From: an uncultured Armatimonadota bacterium
Lineage (GTDB): Bacteria > Armatimonadota > Fimbriimonadia > Fimbriimonadales > Fimbriimonadaceae
Direction: 5' to 3'
NCBI GenBank assembly: GCA_903927345.1
Contig: CAIYMO010000013.1
Location: 1-64,000 of the forward strand
DNA length: 64,000 bases
Position 1 is the stretch's first letter; each line of letters begins with the position of its first letter. The notes under the pieces were generated by a model, which saw only the letters and a list, made by a program, of their open reading frames with translations, ran no database searches and was not told the DNA's origin. The position numbers and the translations under genes are program-made. Of the stretch, positions 19,122 to 25,327 are shown one piece after another.

Positions 19122-19576
19122 TGGGGCGCTACCGAGTCTGCAAGTCATTTACGGTTGAGTCCGGGCATATGCTTTCTAAGCATCCAGGCTCGTGCCGTTA
19201 CCCGCACGGTCACACTCGGGTCGTTGAAGTTGTGCTTTCGGCAGAGGAGCTGGACAGCAATGATATGGTCGTCGATTTTAAGGCGATCAAGTTGCTTTGT
19301 CAGGAGCATATTGAGCGTTATGACCATCGAATGGCGTTGAACTCGAACGACCCTTTGTTGGACGCTATGCAGAGCGTGCATCCCGACTCCGTTCTTGTAT
19401 TTGAGAACCAGGATCCGACGACTGAGGTCGTGGCGCGGGAGATCTTCGACTATGTGTCGAACGGCCTTCGAGAAGGGCTTGATCGCGACGGCTATCGGAT
19501 TGAGCCAGGTCGCGTTTTGCTTGAGAGAGTTCGGGTTACCGAAACTCCCTCAAGCTGGGCTGAGTACCGCGTTTAA
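19121..19576 (+). CDS. queD: 6-carboxy-5,6,7,8-tetrahydropterin synthase / PTPS family (QueD-like)
   Basis: 151 aa. Family members convert 7,8-dihydroneopterin triphosphate to 6-carboxytetrahydropterin (queuosine pathway) or to pyruvoyl-tetrahydropterin. The zinc-binding histidines are visible in VESGHML and in the motif CRYPHGHTR, which also holds the catalytic Cys (CxxxHGH as in QueD). DFKAIKLL and the later ERYDHRMAL with Asp-His are typical, and TPSSWAEYRV near the C-terminus is the substrate-binding Glu region. It starts inside the tpiA stop codon. No other queuosine gene is seen, so the pathway assignment is from family only. The stop shares TTAA with that of the convergent gene. Confidence 0.88.
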   Translation: MGRYRVCKSFTVESGHMLSKHPGSCRYPHGHTRVVEVVLSAEELDSNDMVVDFKAIKLLCQEHIERYDHRMALNSNDPLLDAMQSVHPDSVLVFENQDPTTEVVAREIFDYVSNGLREGLDRDGYRIEPGRVLLERVRVTETPSSWAEYRV

Positions 19577-21210
19577 GCGGCGATTCTTTGCTCGGCGCGG
19601 AGAGCGGCGATCACTCGTTCGCGGGCTTCTTGGCCACCACGGGAGATTTGGCCAAACACCCAGAAGGCGAAGTCCATGTCGCTGGCTCCGTTGAGCAAGT
19701 CGACTTCTTGACCGTTCACAACGGCCGAGTTGATCGGTGCGATTTCTGGCTCAAGCGGCATGTAGAGGCTGACGCCATCGGGGATCGCCGTCATGTTGAC
19801 GAAATCGGAATGGTCGTTGAGCTTCCACTTTCCGAGGAACTTGGCGAGGTTATCGTCGATTGACTTTTGGTAGTCGACGTTGAGGGCACCAAAGGTTTGT
19901 GAGCCTTCGTGGTAGAGCCATGCACCGTCGACGATCCAGTTGCTGAATCCGGCCATGCGGGCCCGGATCGAATAGTCGTCGTCTTCGAGGTTGCCAAGGC
20001 CGTAGATCGGATCGAATCCGCCGATAGCGTCAAGGCAGGCCTCGGGCATTACGAAGCAGAGTCCGCGAATTTGGGTCCATTCGGTAGCACTTGATTTGTG
20101 CTCGCCGAGATACTTGTTTGCTTCTCGCATCATCTCGATGATGTTGGTGAAAGCAGGGAGTCCAGCGTGCTGTTTACCGTTGACTCGGTTTGAGACAACT
20201 CCGACGAGACCCGGATTCTTATCCGCATCTTGGAGCTGGGTGAAGGCGTTCATCAGCTCGGGCATACAGCCGAGGGATGGGAAAACGTCGTCGTTGGTGA
20301 CGCCATAGGCATCAAAGCCACCCTTAGTTCGAAGGTAGCTGAGACCTGCGTTCGCGCCTTGGCCATAGCCGAGGTTGTAGGGTTGATCGATGAGGTGGAC
20401 CATGCCACCCATTTGGGCGGCGAAGTCTTGCCAGAGGCCCTTGTGTTCATCGTTGGTGCCGTTGAGGACGACTGCGAATTCGACTTCACCTGGGTAGTAG
20501 GTGACAAAGCTGGAGATGCACTCCTTGCCCATTCCGAAGTTGTTGACGGTTGGCATTGCAAAGCCGACCTTTGGCCACTTGGGAAGCTCGCCATCGCCGA
20601 TGACGGCAACGATGAACCAGCCCATTGGATCGAGACCCTCATAGAGTCGACCGGGGAGTTCGGTTTTCTGGGAAAGGAATCGCACTTGGCGGTCTGGGAA
20701 GTGCTTTTGGATCAGTTCAGCAAACTCTTCAGCGGTCCATTCGATGGTGTGATATGGGTTGCTTGGCTTGTCGCCGAGTTTGGCGTTTGGATCGTACAGA
20801 AGGCGGTTTGGGGTGCTGATGACGATTCGTCCGGTGCACGCTTTGACTGCTTCGAGGAACTTTTCGGGATCAGGAAGGTGCTCGATCGTCTCAAAGGAGA
20901 CGACCATGTCGGCTTGACTATAATCGTATTCGCATACGTCGCCGGTGACGAAGCCAGCGCCCGCGTAGACGGAGCCAGCATAGGAAGTTGCTTCTTCGGA
21001 GACATCGACACCGGTTGCGCTCTTGGCAAAGAGAGAGGCGTAGTCGGTTCCGTAGCCCTCACCGCATGCCGCGTCGACGACTTTTGCATCCTCGTACCAG
21101 GGGCGGAAAAAGAGATACCGCTGGAAGTGCGTTGCTTGGGTCGCATAGTCGCTCACGAACGGAATCATGCGTTCGCCGGTCCAAGCCAATGTCGGTGAAG
21201 AGTTGCTCAT
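19573..21210 (-). CDS. Fused SAM-methyltransferase and family-2 glycosyltransferase
   Basis: 545 aa with two domains. Residues about 1-210 are a class I methyltransferase: WTGERMIPF, the SAM motif VVDAACGEGYGTDYASL, then ADMVVSFETIEHLPDPEKFL and RIVISTPNRLL. Residues about 235-470 are a GT2-like glycosyltransferase: EFAVVLNGTNDEHKGLW, the acceptor-loop segment IDQPYNLGYGQGANAGL, a possible metal-binding TNDDVFP, and GFDPIYGLGNLEDDDYSIRAR typical of rhamnosyl/GT2 enzymes. The last 70 residues are of unclear fold. Both halves look intact. Such fusions occur in O-antigen, glycopeptide and cell-surface glycan synthesis; the nearby sugar-nucleotide transferase gene fits this. It is divergent from that gene at 21319. 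Confidence 0.85.
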   Translation of the reverse strand: MSNSSPTLAWTGERMIPFVSDYATQATHFQRYLFFRPWYEDAKVVDAACGEGYGTDYASLFAKSATGVDVSEEATSYAGSVYAGAGFVTGDVCEYDYSQADMVVSFETIEHLPDPEKFLEAVKACTGRIVISTPNRLLYDPNAKLGDKPSNPYHTIEWTAEEFAELIQKHFPDRQVRFLSQKTELPGRLYEGLDPMGWFIVAVIGDGELPKWPKVGFAMPTVNNFGMGKECISSFVTYYPGEVEFAVVLNGTNDEHKGLWQDFAAQMGGMVHLIDQPYNLGYGQGANAGLSYLRTKGGFDAYGVTNDDVFPSLGCMPELMNAFTQLQDADKNPGLVGVVSNRVNGKQHAGLPAFTNIIEMMREANKYLGEHKSSATEWTQIRGLCFVMPEACLDAIGGFDPIYGLGNLEDDDYSIRARMAGFSNWIVDGAWLYHEGSQTFGALNVDYQKSIDDNLAKFLGKWKLNDHSDFVNMTAIPDGVSLYMPLEPEIAPINSAVVNGQEVDLLNGASDMDFAFWVFGQISRGGQEARERVIAALRAEQRIAA

Positions 21211-21318
21211 GGCAATGTGTTTGTCGGCTAGTTTGCAAAGAACTCTAGGTTTTGTCGTGCAAATCCGTATAAAGCTATCCCTTTTGACGCTTGGGGGCGT
21301 CTCTTCTAATTGACGCAG

Positions 21319-23799
21319 ATGAAAGTTGTGATCATGGCGGGAGGTGAGGGTTCACGGCTTAGGCCGCTGACCTCGCAACGCCCGAAACCGTTGGTGCCGG
21401 TGGCAACCGTGCCGATCATGGAGCACCTCGTGGGGCTGTTGCGCGAGCAGGGGTTCCAGGAGTTTCTGGTTACGACTTCATACCTTGCCGGTGAGATTCA
21501 GTCTCACTTTGGGACGGGCCGGGACTTTGGAGTTTCGATTTCCTATCCCGAGGAGCCCATGCCGTTGGGGACGGCGGGGGCGATCAAGAATGCTTCAGCT
21601 GAGCTTTCTGGCTCGCCGTTCTTGATCGTTTCTGGTGATGCTCTTACGGATTGCGACTTCACGGAAGCCGTTCGGTTCCATGAGTCGCGAAACGCAATGG
21701 TGACGCTGATTTTGAAACGGGTCAGTGATCCGCTGGAATTTGGGGTTGTTGTTACGGACGAGGATGGGCGCGTTAGGCGACTTGTTGAGAAGCCGGACTG
21801 GTCGGAGGTTCAGACCGATACAGTGAACACGGGGATGTACATCATCGATCCTCGCGTGTTGGACCTGATGGAGGCGGGAACCGGATATGACTGGAGCATG
21901 GACATCTTCCCTCGGCTGATTGCGGAAGGTGAGCCGGTTTACGGTTTTGTGATGCCGGGGTTCTGGTGCGATGTCGGTTCGCTGAGCCAGTACCGGGAAG
22001 CTCAGGAGAAGGTGATGAGCGGAGTGGTTCAGCTCCGGATCCCGGGAGCGCATAAGGGTGGCGTTTCACTTGGGCACGGGTGCCAGATTGACGAGCAGGC
22101 TGACCTGATTCCGCCGGTGGTTCTGGGGGAGAACGTTAAGGTTAAGCGTGGCGCGCGAGTCGGTCCCTATACGGCTCTGGGCGCGAACTGCATCGTTGAG
22201 GAGTTTGCGGTGGTGGAGCGGTCAGTGGTGTGGGAGAACACGTATGTGGGATCCGAAGCTCAGATTCGCTCCGCAGTGCTGGGGGCAAAGGTCATTGCGA
22301 AGCGAAACGTTTCGGTGATGGAGGATGCGGTGGTGGGAGATCGCTGCCTTTTGGATTTGGGGGCGGTGGTTCGGCCGCGCGTCAAGATTTGGCCCGATAA
22401 GGTTGTCGAGCGTGGCGCGACGGTCACGATGTCGATGGTTTGGGGGCATCGGTGGCAGGCGTCGTTGTTCCGGGATATCGGAGTTGCGGGCATCAGCAAT
22501 ATCGAGATGACTCCCGAAGTGGCGAGCCGACTGGCAGGAGCGTTTGGATCGCTGTTCCCTCTCGGTAGCACGGTGGTGGCGGCTCGAGATACGGCGCGTT
22601 CATCGCGGATGCTGAAGCGGGCGATGATTTCCTCGCTGGTCAGCGTTGGTTGTAACGTGCTTGATTTGCGCGGTGTGCCGCTTCCGGTGGCGCGGTACAC
22701 GATGAGTCAAGCGGGTGCGGCGGGCAGTGTGCTTGTGCGCAAGCAACCAGGGAATCGCCGAATGTCTTTGGTTGAGCTGTTTGATTCTCGTGGGAAGCAG
22801 ATTAAGAAAGGGACGGAGCGGAAGGTGGAAGCGAGATACTTCCGAGAGGACTTCAATCGGGCGGACGCTGAGGATATTGGGTTGATTGATTACGCCCAAG
22901 GTGCGGTGGAGAGTTACTTGGAGGCGATAGCTGCGCAGACTAACGTGCCTTCGGCGGGACTAAGGGTTGCGTGCGATTACGCGCACTCATCGGTAGGTAC
23001 CTTGTTCCCTTCGATTGCCGCCAACTTGGGAATCGATACGGTTGGATTTCATGGGCATCCTGATTCACGCCGGACTCCGAATACAGCGTCGGAGATTGAA
23101 GCTCATCTGCAAGAGCTGAGTCATTCAGTTCGGCATTTGAATTGCGATCTGGGGATTCTGTTTTTGCATGAGGGCGAGCGGTTCGCGCTGGTGGATGATC
23201 AGGGCGCGATTGTTGATGGCCTGATGCTGTTCGCTTTGATGGCGAAAGCTCGGCTGGCGGCATCGCCAGAGAGTTCGATCGCGATTCCATCCTTCTTCCC
23301 GAGTTCGGTTGCTCAGTGGCTCGAGGCGTTGGGCGCTCGAGTTGAACGGGTGCCGAACACTGCGCGTGGGCTTCAGCACGCGGATATCGGATTCAGTGGG
23401 GATGGGCGCGGTGGCTTCTTCTTTGGGGAGATGCCGACCAGCTTTGATGCTTGTTTTGCGACTGCTTGGCTGTTGCCCCTGCTTAGGGCGGCGGATCGTC
23501 CGGTCAGCCAGTATCGGGCAGACCTGCCTGAGTTTGCGATGGCTTACGATGCGGTCACCATTCATGGTCCTGAAAAGGGCGGGGTGCTGCGCGAGCTCAC
23601 AGAGCAGTTCCCACAGGACAGCTCCGAGCCCGAAGGGGTTCGGATTCAGTTGTCGCGTGGGACGGCTTTGGTGACTCCGGACTCGTTTGAGCCGATGTTC
23701 CATGTCCACGCCGAGGGTCAGACGAATTTTGATTGCGAGGAAGTCGCTGAGGAGGCTGTGCGCATTATCCAGTCAATCATCGCCCGTTCCAAGCCATAA
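21319..23799 (+). CDS. Sugar-1-phosphate nucleotidylyltransferase fused to a degenerate phosphomannomutase domain
   Basis: About 826 aa. Residues 1-235 are an NTP-transferase: MKVVIMAGGEGSRLRPLT, RPKPLVPVATVPIMEH, SGDALTDCD, VEKP and WCDVGSLSQYREA. This is the mannose-1-phosphate guanylyltransferase / glucose-1-phosphate transferase type. Residues about 245-370 are left-handed beta-helix hexapeptides. Residues about 380-820 are phosphomannomutase-like, but the phosphoserine loop (TASHNP) is replaced by RKQPGNRR near 474-481, and the Mg-binding DGDADR by HEGER near 617-621. That half is therefore probably not a mutase. ATG 21319 is preferred over TTG 21310 because the family starts at MKxVIMAGG. 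The product likely supplies GDP-mannose or a similar donor for surface glycans. Confidence 0.88.
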   Translation: MKVVIMAGGEGSRLRPLTSQRPKPLVPVATVPIMEHLVGLLREQGFQEFLVTTSYLAGEIQSHFGTGRDFGVSISYPEEPMPLGTAGAIKNASAELSGSPFLIVSGDALTDCDFTEAVRFHESRNAMVTLILKRVSDPLEFGVVVTDEDGRVRRLVEKPDWSEVQTDTVNTGMYIIDPRVLDLMEAGTGYDWSMDIFPRLIAEGEPVYGFVMPGFWCDVGSLSQYREAQEKVMSGVVQLRIPGAHKGGVSLGHGCQIDEQADLIPPVVLGENVKVKRGARVGPYTALGANCIVEEFAVVERSVVWENTYVGSEAQIRSAVLGAKVIAKRNVSVMEDAVVGDRCLLDLGAVVRPRVKIWPDKVVERGATVTMSMVWGHRWQASLFRDIGVAGISNIEMTPEVASRLAGAFGSLFPLGSTVVAARDTARSSRMLKRAMISSLVSVGCNVLDLRGVPLPVARYTMSQAGAAGSVLVRKQPGNRRMSLVELFDSRGKQIKKGTERKVEARYFREDFNRADAEDIGLIDYAQGAVESYLEAIAAQTNVPSAGLRVACDYAHSSVGTLFPSIAANLGIDTVGFHGHPDSRRTPNTASEIEAHLQELSHSVRHLNCDLGILFLHEGERFALVDDQGAIVDGLMLFALMAKARLAASPESSIAIPSFFPSSVAQWLEALGARVERVPNTARGLQHADIGFSGDGRGGFFFGEMPTSFDACFATAWLLPLLRAADRPVSQYRADLPEFAMAYDAVTIHGPEKGGVLRELTEQFPQDSSEPEGVRIQLSRGTALVTPDSFEPMFHVHAEGQTNFDCEEVAEEAVRIIQSIIARSKP

Positions 23800-23808: not shown

Positions 23809-24294
23809 ATGACGCTACGGGTTCCGTATGAGGGTTTTGTCAGTGCGGTCGAGCAACAGCTCACGACGAAACATGTCTTCGTTCATGCCCAGGCTGGGCG
23901 CGTAATTATCACAGCGGGGGAGGCGAAGTCTTCGTTTGTCATCGTTTCGTCTTGCCGAAAGCCAGTTGACGAGGTGCTCAAGGAACTGCACGCCGCCGGA
24001 TTCCACGCTCATGATGGCTGCTGGTCGGTTGACGATGATCAGGAGATCTTGGCCCTCCCTTATGTCGCGGCGGTTTCTTACCGGGCCACTAAGGATCGTA
24101 CGGGAGTATGGGTTGAAGCGTATTCGAACCCGCCGACCGATACCGAAGTTGTCAGAGACTTCTTCGCCGAGATGACGGCTGAGCAGGGTCTACCGGAAAT
24201 GAGTTTGGAAGAGTTCATTGCTCAAGCTCAGGTAAGTATCTCGATCGTTTCGCCGGTCGAACTTGAGAAGTATCTGGGAAGTAAGCATGCTTAG
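23809..24294 (+). CDS. Conserved hypothetical cytosolic protein
   Basis: 161 aa, not recognised. It has no signal peptide or membrane segment. The first 80 residues alternate strand and helix (HVFVHAQAGRVIITAGEA, FVIVSSCRKPVDEVLKELHAAGF). A segment with VAAVSYRATKDRTGVWVEAY and a helical acidic C-terminus follow. The gene starts nine bases after the nucleotidyltransferase stop and overlaps the start of the glycosidase-like gene by eight bases, so it belongs to the same group, but nothing in it shows a role. Confidence 0.7.
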   Translation: MTLRVPYEGFVSAVEQQLTTKHVFVHAQAGRVIITAGEAKSSFVIVSSCRKPVDEVLKELHAAGFHAHDGCWSVDDDQEILALPYVAAVSYRATKDRTGVWVEAYSNPPTDTEVVRDFFAEMTAEQGLPEMSLEEFIAQAQVSISIVSPVELEKYLGSKHA

Positions 24295-25327
24295 ACGGGG
24301 CGTTTCCACCGCGATTCCGTTGCGCCGGACGAACGGTCCTCGTGTCGAAGTCATTAATGATCTGAAGACTTTGCCAACCTGCTGGATTCGGGAGCAGGCG
24401 ATGTTGTGGGAAATCTTTGCCGAGTATGACAAGCCCATGTGGCTTGATCTGGATGACCGAATTCGTACGGTTGCCATGAGCAAGAAGAAGCTCCTGCTGG
24501 GTTTGAGCCCGGTTCCACATCCTGCGAATCCGAACTGGCACCGGCACACGGGAGGGCCTTGGAAGGAGTGGTGGAGGCCCGACTTTAGGCTTTGGGGGGC
24601 AAGCAGAGAGCGAGCGCAGGACATCATTGATCATGCCGTAAACCTTTGGCGGCAGTTGGGCGGGAGCCCGAGTGGGCTGAGGTTCGAGTGGTTTAATGAG
24701 CCAGCTCGCGGGCATGTGGGTGGTCCCTCGGAGGCCAGCGGTCAGGCAGTTGGGACTTGGGACACGGCGTTCCACTCATTCTGCAACTACATGTTGGTGG
24801 ACGAAGGGCATCTCAATTTTCACGGGCATACCGTTCAGGGTTCGACGCTCTCGTTTTGGGGAGAGCCGGGTCCGGAAGCGGTGGAGCTTCGGACGTGCGT
24901 TGGGGGCGACGACGGGCAGTGGTGGACGCGCATGAACCGACGTTGCGCGAATATTTCGCACTATTACAGCGGGCAGGTTCGTCGACCAGAAGAGTATGCG
25001 AAGCAATACGGTGAAGCACTTGAATCAATGATCGGGAAGATTTCAGCGTTGCCGATTCCGACGACGAGCAAGCAGATTTGTATTCACGAGTGGTACATCA
25101 CCAAGCCCATGTTGGGCTATCACAAGGGCGAGTGTAGCGACACTCTTCGGGCGGAGTGCATCATTGCTGCCGGTGAGGAGATTGCTCGACACTCGGAGAT
25201 CGAGATGGCCTTCTTCTTTACGCACTTCTTCCCTGACGAGGCGAATGTCAGCGAGTACGAGAAGTACAGTGCCTACCGGGGTGTTGGACGGAAGGCACTT
25301 GAGCGATACTTGCGCGGGAAGCCCTGA
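24287..25327 (+). CDS. Uncharacterised protein resembling a clan GH-A glycosidase
   Basis: 346 aa, no signal peptide, not assigned to a family by eye. It has TIM-barrel glycosidase features: aromatic segments such as WRPDFRLWG, a candidate acid/base Glu138 in WFNEPARGH (the NEP motif of clan GH-A), and a candidate nucleophile Glu268 in ICIHEWYITKP. HFFPDEANVSEYEKYSAYRG follows near the end. The spacing of about 130 residues between the two Glu fits that clan. The ATG at 24287 has a GGAAG Shine-Dalgarno and overlaps the previous gene. The start MLRRGVSTAIPLRR lacks export features, so it would act in the cytosol, perhaps on a nucleotide-sugar-derived glycan. Confidence 0.6.
   Translation: MLRRGVSTAIPLRRTNGPRVEVINDLKTLPTCWIREQAMLWEIFAEYDKPMWLDLDDRIRTVAMSKKKLLLGLSPVPHPANPNWHRHTGGPWKEWWRPDFRLWGASRERAQDIIDHAVNLWRQLGGSPSGLRFEWFNEPARGHVGGPSEASGQAVGTWDTAFHSFCNYMLVDEGHLNFHGHTVQGSTLSFWGEPGPEAVELRTCVGGDDGQWWTRMNRRCANISHYYSGQVRRPEEYAKQYGEALESMIGKISALPIPTTSKQICIHEWYITKPMLGYHKGECSDTLRAECIIAAGEEIARHSEIEMAFFFTHFFPDEANVSEYEKYSAYRGVGRKALERYLRGKP

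Follow-up and report, generated by a model that had tools for sequence, protein, structure and literature searches.

A nucleotidyltransferase fused to a phosphohexomutase-like half that keeps its fold and has lost its catalytic loops

The ADP-glucose pyrophosphorylase GlgC is regulated without any mutase-like domain. For proteins that join a nucleotidyltransferase to a mutase, KEGG has entry K16881, which we take to be the bifunctional entry 'Mannose-1-phosphate guanylyltransferase / phosphomannomutase'. SCO1388 of Streptomyces coelicolor, with the same domains as the protein studied here, is described in the available part of one report as apparently bifunctional, combining GDP-mannose pyrophosphorylase (GMP) and phosphomannomutase (PMM) activities (PMC5982138). 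Two other proteins combine family membership with lost activity, as far as the accessible portions of their sources go: PGM5 (aciculin) has the mutase fold, is inactive and still binds glucose-1-phosphate (PMC7761743), and GMPPA is a non-catalytic paralogue, a dead partner that controls the pyrophosphorylase GMPPB (PMC11228364). Here we analyze a fusion gene in a 64,000-nucleotide stretch of DNA from an uncultured Armatimonadota bacterium, called the window below, in which a nucleotidyltransferase and a left-handed β-helix (LbH) region precede a phosphohexomutase-like C-terminal half. The position given for the gene in a preliminary description of this DNA, 21319–23799, is correct.

Each described system resembles the fusion only in part. 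Active α-D-phosphohexomutases (PMM/PGM 9du5 and 1wqa; GlmM) share its four-domain fold and align over their whole length, but the serine, metal, sugar, and phosphate loops are all altered in the fusion. Pyrophosphorylases for GDP-mannose or UDP-glucose with an LbH tail (GMPP; 8x7s) share the transferase signature and LbH region, whereas the matched chains (360–401 amino acids) have no C-terminal mutase-like half. GlgC also consists of a transferase plus LbH and may fill the same slot in glycogen synthesis, but the GlgC model TIGR02091 gave the window protein only 97.8 bits against a cut-off of 424.9, and the protein does not qualify as GlgC. PGM5 is a stand-alone vertebrate protein that still binds substrate and whose active site is conserved, whereas the fusion has lost the loops and carries a fused transferase. 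In GMPPA the dead element is a transferase on a separate chain, whereas in the fusion it is a mutase.

The C-terminal half of the window protein has lost the mutase active site. In phmmer alignments to solved mutases, residues 382–819 aligned over the whole length of the Thermococcus and Pyrococcus PGM/PMM proteins (E ~1e-40 and ~1e-38, respectively). They paired ITASHNPPEYNG with VRKQPGNRRMSL and DGDADR with LHEGER, and the loop pairing was the same in each of two separate alignments by MAFFT. The preliminary description had claimed that the phosphoserine loop TASHNP and the metal motif DGDADR were replaced, and these alignments bear out both replacements (by RKQPGN and LHEGER). That description missed the sugar and phosphate loops, which are lost as well. 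In addition, the arginine of the GxRG motif is Ala390 and the loop lysine is Glu486. The change in the metal motif is partly conservative, as the second and third aspartates became glutamates and the arginine was kept. All four loops of an active mutase (phosphoserine, metal, sugar, and phosphate) are missing, and of the two active sites of a bifunctional GMP/PMM only the transferase site is present.

This loss extends to the whole family. We aligned 76 family members with 23 active-type mutases of the same phylum, two of which are themselves fused and live-looking (L195 and L196). The family set consisted of the window protein, 66 sequences found in other genomes belonging to the phylum, and nine named entries (Fimbriimonas, Bacillota, Dictyoglomus, one actinomycete, three Streptomyces, Nonomuraea, and a Sulfuricurvum plasmid). 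First, six residues (the catalytic-loop His, the loop Lys, the third metal Asp, the sugar-loop Glu, and the phosphate-loop Arg and Ser) were present in 23/23 active-type mutases and in 0/76 relatives, a pattern that makes chance loss untenable. The third metal Asp was replaced by Glu in 96% of the family (73/76), the sugar-loop Glu by Asp in 80%, and the phosphate-loop Ser by Asp in 95%. Second, the catalytic-loop Pro and the loop Gly were also found in 0/76 relatives, the GxRG Arg in 2/76, and the sugar-loop Ser in 13/76. Third, the catalytic serine position was Ser in 22/76 relatives, with its surroundings lost, and Gln in the window protein; the first metal Asp was retained in 10/76 and the second in 41/76 (Asp or Glu in 60/76), and Arg621 of the metal loop in 60/76. 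Finally, fold residues stayed: Phe384 in 75/76, Asp424 in 75, Gly444 in 73, Asp553 in 75, Gly612 in 76, Gly629 in 74, and Glu799 in 74. Residues that are invariant in the active-type set therefore split in two, those of the fold being kept and those of catalysis going, and loss of the mutase site is a trait common to the family, not a local accident. Misalignment as the cause of the apparent loss was rejected on the strength of the phmmer and MAFFT pairings and of the 76/76 versus 23/23 pattern. From these substitutions, the C-terminal half would be predicted to lack mutase activity in the test tube.

The fold remains. An AlphaFold model of residues 368–826 built from six sequences (pLDDT 79.7, pTM 0.70) had the Thermococcus phosphoglucomutase 9du5 as its best match (Foldseek E 5e-31), and VIA-align superimposed the two over 422 residues with a Z score of 28.1, in keeping with the four-domain fold; the rmsd was high (6.3), and the packing of the domains is therefore uncertain. 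Modeling of the full-length protein from five sequences gave a poor result (pLDDT 57.3, pTM 0.41), which was not interpreted. Together with the alignments and the comparison of 76 with 23 sequences, the fold match strongly supports the earlier view of a mutase domain that lost its active site and retained its fold.

Selection has also preserved this half. In a per-domain comparison of seven sequence pairs, identity in domain I was 85–100%. Four pairs had informative dS; domain I dN was 0 in L100/L101 (dS 0.32), 0.017 in L108/L111 (dS 0.68), 0.010 in L112/L106 (dS 0.66), and 0 in L123/L151 (dS 2.3), and transferase dN in the same pairs was 0.005–0.08. In several pairs, including the window protein and L004, dS was saturated or undefined in some domains. 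L004, from a Fimbriimonas sp. metagenome-assembled genome, is the closest named relative (79% identity over 826/826 residues); identity to it was 85% in domain I and 83% in the transferase. Purifying selection on domain I is about as strong as on the transferase; within the mutase-like half it acts most heavily on domain I, with domain II next. With its site lost, its fold kept, and its domain conserved, the mutase-like half has the properties of a pseudoenzyme.

New residues have become fixed where the old ones disappeared. We called a residue family-specific when it was conserved in at least 85% of the family and at most 25% of active-type mutases. Eight basic residues of domain I (Arg430, Lys433, Arg434, Arg459, Arg474, Arg501, Lys502, and Arg509) occurred in 86–100% of family members and in no more than 13% of the active-type set. 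Glu486, Glu620, Asp788, His795, Pro737, and Lys753-Gly754-Arg758 were other examples, and several family-specific residues sit on former catalytic loops. The conserved basic residues may form a remodeled site for an anion or sugar phosphate, or a docking face toward the transferase.

The explanation we favor, with a little better than even confidence, is that the protein is an active sugar-1-phosphate nucleotidyltransferase whose pseudo-phosphohexomutase half is a non-catalytic module, most likely one that binds a ligand and sets transferase activity, with nucleoside diphosphate (NDP)-glucose as the probable product in many lineages. The half would have kept the mutase fold while losing the residues of the phosphoserine/Mg mutase cycle, and selection would maintain it as a non-catalytic module. 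A remodeled cleft, or a site near it, would most likely bind a hexose phosphate or bisphosphate or a nucleotide sugar, and binding there would set the activity of the transferase, in analogy to the regulatory sites of GlgC-type pyrophosphorylases and to the dead partner GMPPA but by other means. The product would, in many lineages, probably be NDP-glucose for α-glucan, with the fusion taking the slot of GlgC. From the retained fold, the purifying selection, the new conserved basic residues, and the precedents we infer ligand binding and allosteric control, and glucose as the sugar is likewise an expectation. The suggestion in the preliminary description of a regulatory or sugar-binding role hence stands as the most likely reading, at that strength.

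The transferase half keeps its catalytic residues. Eleven of 12 positions checked (Gly8, Gly9, Gly11, Arg13, Lys23, Asp107, Glu157, Lys158, Asn170, Gly172, and Asp218) were kept in 76/76 relatives and the twelfth, Gly87, in 75/76, with one gap. The window protein has the GGxGxRLxP(L/M)T...PKP signature, the Asp of SGD, the EKP and NTG motifs, and the second-metal Asp of a sugar-1-phosphate nucleotidyltransferase with an LbH region. Which sugar it uses is a separate question. It is possible, though we rate it well short of even, that the transferase makes GDP-mannose, that the dead domain senses mannose phosphates, and that any link to glucan is incidental; this alternative competes only with the glucose part of our explanation. 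The best NCBIfam model for the window protein was indeed a mannose-1-phosphate guanylyltransferase (man1P_GTase_Rv, NF052502), and GMPP structures were among the top PDB matches. However, the score for that model was 249.6 bits, below its cut-off of 440, and the top PDB match was a UTP-glucose-1-phosphate uridylyltransferase, at 211 bits versus 147 for the next. With branching-enzyme and family 4 glycosyltransferase (GT4) neighbors in several lineages also pointing to α-glucan synthesis, the label 'guanylyltransferase' used in the preliminary description is not established.

These neighbors were counted in the 80 of 83 loci in which the gene was recognized. A GH57 branching enzyme lay at most two genes away in 7/80 loci. 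In six of these, all in the window's phylum (G062, G014, G052, G124, G042, and G028), it was upstream on the same strand; in the Bacillota record L005 it was downstream on the opposite strand. Pfam confirmed the combination of GH57 and BE_C in three proteins (two from L005, one from L168). The six genomes represent 6/47 genomes of the phylum with both genes, and rough arithmetic predicts that ~0.05 of 47 would have the two genes within 1 kb of each other by chance; as the six genomes come from two families, they reflect few events. A GT4 glycosyltransferase was directly upstream of the fusion in L005 (Bacillota), L006 (Dictyoglomus), and G109 (the window's own phylum), with a glycogen synthase subfamily as the best named model, below cut-off. 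By loose clustering, a GT4-like neighbor was present in 9/80 loci, four of which share one N-terminal signature. The GT4 gene directly upstream in Dictyoglomus (L006:141–1760) encodes a Nudix domain fused to GT4.

We also profiled 151 genomes of the window's phylum. The fusion was present in 74 among the matches listed, which extended down to E ~3e-72, so that fragments elsewhere may escape, and at least six of the 74 are partial. GlgC was found in 40/151 genomes at E 1e-80 (32 over the cut-off), GlgA in 87/151, the GH57 BE_C enzyme in 81/151, and a GH13 branching enzyme in 4/151. With two weak GlgC matches omitted, no genome had both the fusion and GlgC, 74 had the fusion alone, 38 had GlgC alone, and 39 had neither; counting the weak matches (326–328 bits) puts both in two genomes. 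Among the 87 GlgA genomes, 48 had only the fusion, 32 only GlgC, none both, and seven neither. The window's own family comprised 20 genomes, three of which lack the fusion (G040, G128, and G138) and also lack GlgA; another, G012, has the fusion and lacks GlgA. We use this co-occurrence profile as a hint, and replacement of GlgC by the fusion is a good hypothesis only.

Several observations count against our explanation or against parts of it. On independent pairs of an rpoB tree covering 80 of the 151 genomes, the mutual exclusion of fusion and GlgC was not significant: seven pairs were independent, one to three of them differed in GlgC, and all that did so differed in the expected direction (0 the same way). 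The association of the fusion with GlgA was not significant over the 151 genomes (p 0.10), and 26 of the 74 fusion genomes lack GlgA. The window's own neighbors are not glucan genes. In Actinomycetota the neighbor is a gene resembling CDP-alcohol phosphatidyltransferases (L007 and L156), and the pathway there may be a different one; in agreement with this neighborhood, K08744 stands beside K16881 in one Streptomyces synteny table in the available part of its source (PMC13118837). Domains III and IV are less conserved, with 60% and 71% identity, respectively, between the window protein and L004, and domain IV falls to 53% in L135/L139. Lastly, two of the three metal-site acids are often Asp or Glu and a serine persists in 22/76 relatives, so some residual metal or ligand chemistry may remain.

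An unlikely alternative, in our judgment, is that the C-terminal half has no ligand of its own and is a structural scaffold or docking platform that supports oligomerization or binds glycosyltransferases or branching enzymes. The fold is kept while all four loops have changed, as a scaffold would allow, and some conserved motifs, Lys753-Gly754-Arg758 among them, lie outside the catalytic loops. Precedents exist in the structures of GlmM in complex with CdaA and in PGM5, which the accessible part of its source presents as an inactive structural protein of muscle (PMC7761743). The former catalytic-loop positions, however, bear the new and strongly conserved Arg474, Pro477, Glu486, Asp788, His795, and Glu620, and new conserved residues at these places speak for a specific site and against a bare scaffold.

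We think it very improbable that the protein is still bifunctional, with a mutase half that works by an altered mechanism, with Glu in place of Asp and a different nucleophile. Such a mechanism might draw on the Ser found in 22/76 relatives, on the acidic second (60/76) and third (Glu, 73/76) metal positions, and on Arg621, and the description of SCO1388 fits it. Against it, the loop His and Lys and the phosphate-loop Arg and Ser are absent from 76/76 relatives, and the serine position of the window protein is Gln. Moreover, the window genome encodes two further proteins with intact phosphohexomutase motifs: L001, which is over the GlmM cut-off (477.9 bits), and L002, a PMM/PGM-like protein whose best match, PMM CpsG, scored 532 bits, below the cut-off. 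The organism consequently does not need the pseudo-mutase domain for mutase chemistry, and an organism-wide loss of mutase capacity was rejected because both proteins keep the motifs. As for SCO1388, the portions of the report at hand derive its activity from its domains, and its mutants had no GMP-related phenotype: they stayed phage-sensitive, double mutants fared no worse, and SCO1388 probably contributes little GMP activity (PMC5982138). SCO1388 and K16881 are described with mutase activity, whereas the streptomycete relatives L154, L157, and L158 lack the mutase motifs; with its described architecture, SCO1388 is itself probably a member of the family. Insertions in SCO1388 with altered actinorhodin are reported from a screen, two passages of the accessible text disagreeing on their grouping (PMC6585502), and K16881 appears in the Streptomyces synteny table cited above (PMC13118837).

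That the mutase half is a relic in decay, on its way to being lost, is least credible of all: domains III and IV diverge fastest and the C-terminal half is much degraded in two Clostridia relatives, but decay was rejected because of the constraint on domain I (dN/dS far below 1 where measurable) and the loss pattern shared across 76 relatives, and full length is kept in five phyla along with new family-specific invariants. In the two Clostridia proteins (L008 and L009) the transferase residues are intact, and L008 has no Pfam mutase domain.

The family spans five phyla; cyanobacteria and Chloroflexota were not among the phyla sampled, and a Streptomyces match (H5) was left out. The 76 do not include four active-type rows, nor L008 and L009, in which the C-terminal half is too degraded for confident alignment. 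Of the 74 fusion genomes of the phylum, 67 (the window's included) are represented in the alignment, the absent ones being G141, G096, G064, G067, G087, G037, and G086. A search of viral contigs for relatives of the fusion found none. In a tree of 54 mutase halves, a branch with 100/100 support separated the 31 pseudo-mutase rows used (of 76) from 21 stand-alone mutases and two intact fused mutases. The Sulfuricurvum row formed a long branch in this tree.

Seven genomes from two families (G013, G079, G112, G144, G093, G149, and G027; sequences L341–L347) encode another fusion with this arrangement of domains, a mirror image of the first. Its mutase motifs are near-intact: five proteins have TASHNP and DGDxDR, the G149 protein has TGSHNP, and the G013 protein has DCDGDR. 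By contrast, its transferase has changed Arg13 to Pro, Lys23 to Arg, and Asp107 to His in 7/7 proteins. The two mirror-image mutase halves included in the tree, L149 and L150, group with a different mutase clade. G058 encodes the matching transferase and mutase in two neighboring frames instead of one, and the transferase there has an intact N-terminal signature. The pseudo-mutase fusion occurs in each of the seven genomes as well, and the two kinds of half-dead fusion may pair in a putative complex.

A more ambitious reading, to which we give rather little credence, is that the large cross-phylum 'bifunctional' family is an allosteric NDP-glucose pyrophosphorylase that takes the place of GlgC in α-glucan synthesis and senses hexose phosphates through its dead mutase; in one branch of the phylum it would have the mirror-image protein as its partner, and these two half-dead chains of like architecture may work as a pair. 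If the mutase half is dead family-wide, bifunctional annotations would be wrong, as would metabolic models that rely on them, and if our explanation is true, the family would plainly exemplify a pseudoenzyme that is joined to the enzyme it targets and has been retained in five phyla. The fusion is also a candidate for the missing glycogen pyrophosphorylase in the GlgC-less genomes of the phylum, and perhaps for the same role in other bacteria with GH57 branching enzymes. In the literature searched, which mostly excluded subscription papers, no title or opening of an abstract called the mutase half of such fusions inactive, and the text searched of a review of prokaryotic α-glucan enzymes did not contain phosphomannomutase or CugP (PMC11046441).

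Table 1. Features of the fusion gene in the window
Feature	Residues	Position	Strand	Remarks
Whole gene: nucleotidyltransferase, LbH, pseudo-phosphohexomutase		21319..23799	+	ATG 21319, stop codon to 23799; 826 amino acids, frame open
NTP_transferase domain	2-232	21322..22014	+	Pfam PF00483, 191.8 bits; catalytic residues kept
Transferase signature GGEGSRLRPLTSQRPKP	8-24	21340..21390	+
Left-handed β-helix / hexapeptide region	253-346	22075..22356	+	PF00132 over cut-off, PF25084 under cut-off
Pseudo-mutase domain I	383-513	22465..22857	+	PGM_PMM_I PF02878, 66.3 bits; matched to PMM/PGM by Foldseek and VIA-align
Former phosphoserine loop TASHNP, now RKQPGN	474-479	22738..22755	+
Glu486 replacing loop Lys	486	22774..22776	+	Lys in 23/23 active-type mutases; Glu in 91% of 76 relatives
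Pseudo-mutase domain II	532-629	22912..23205	+	PGM_PMM_II PF02879, 42.3 bits
Former metal-binding loop DGDADR, now LHEGER	616-621	23164..23181	+
Pseudo-mutase domain III (approximate boundaries)	~630-740	23206..23538	+	Fold match; PF02880 present in relative L006
Former sugar-binding loop GE(M/Q/E)SG(H/G), now GDGRGG	694-699	23398..23415	+
Pseudo-mutase domain IV (approximate boundaries)	~741-826	23539..23796	+	Fold match to residue 454 of 459-residue model
Former phosphate-binding loop RPSGTEP, now TPDSFEP	786-792	23674..23694	+

An in-frame TTG lies at 21310, upstream of the ATG. In the Pfam search of the window protein, the hexapeptide repeats matched best at residues 267–300, the LbH_EIF2B match was below cut-off, and mutase domains III and IV had no match.

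Downstream of the fusion, the frames at 23809–24294 and 24236–25327 (+ strand) match no Pfam family and adjoin the fusion only in L004 and G070. On the other side, the gene at 19573–21210 (– strand) joins a methyltransferase domain to a family 2 glycosyltransferase-like domain. Elsewhere, a protein of ~140–190 amino acids that has no Pfam family and is hydrophobic by eye (L171:5403–5846 and relatives) is encoded upstream of the fusion on the same strand in 7/80 loci, as the next gene in six and the second in one.

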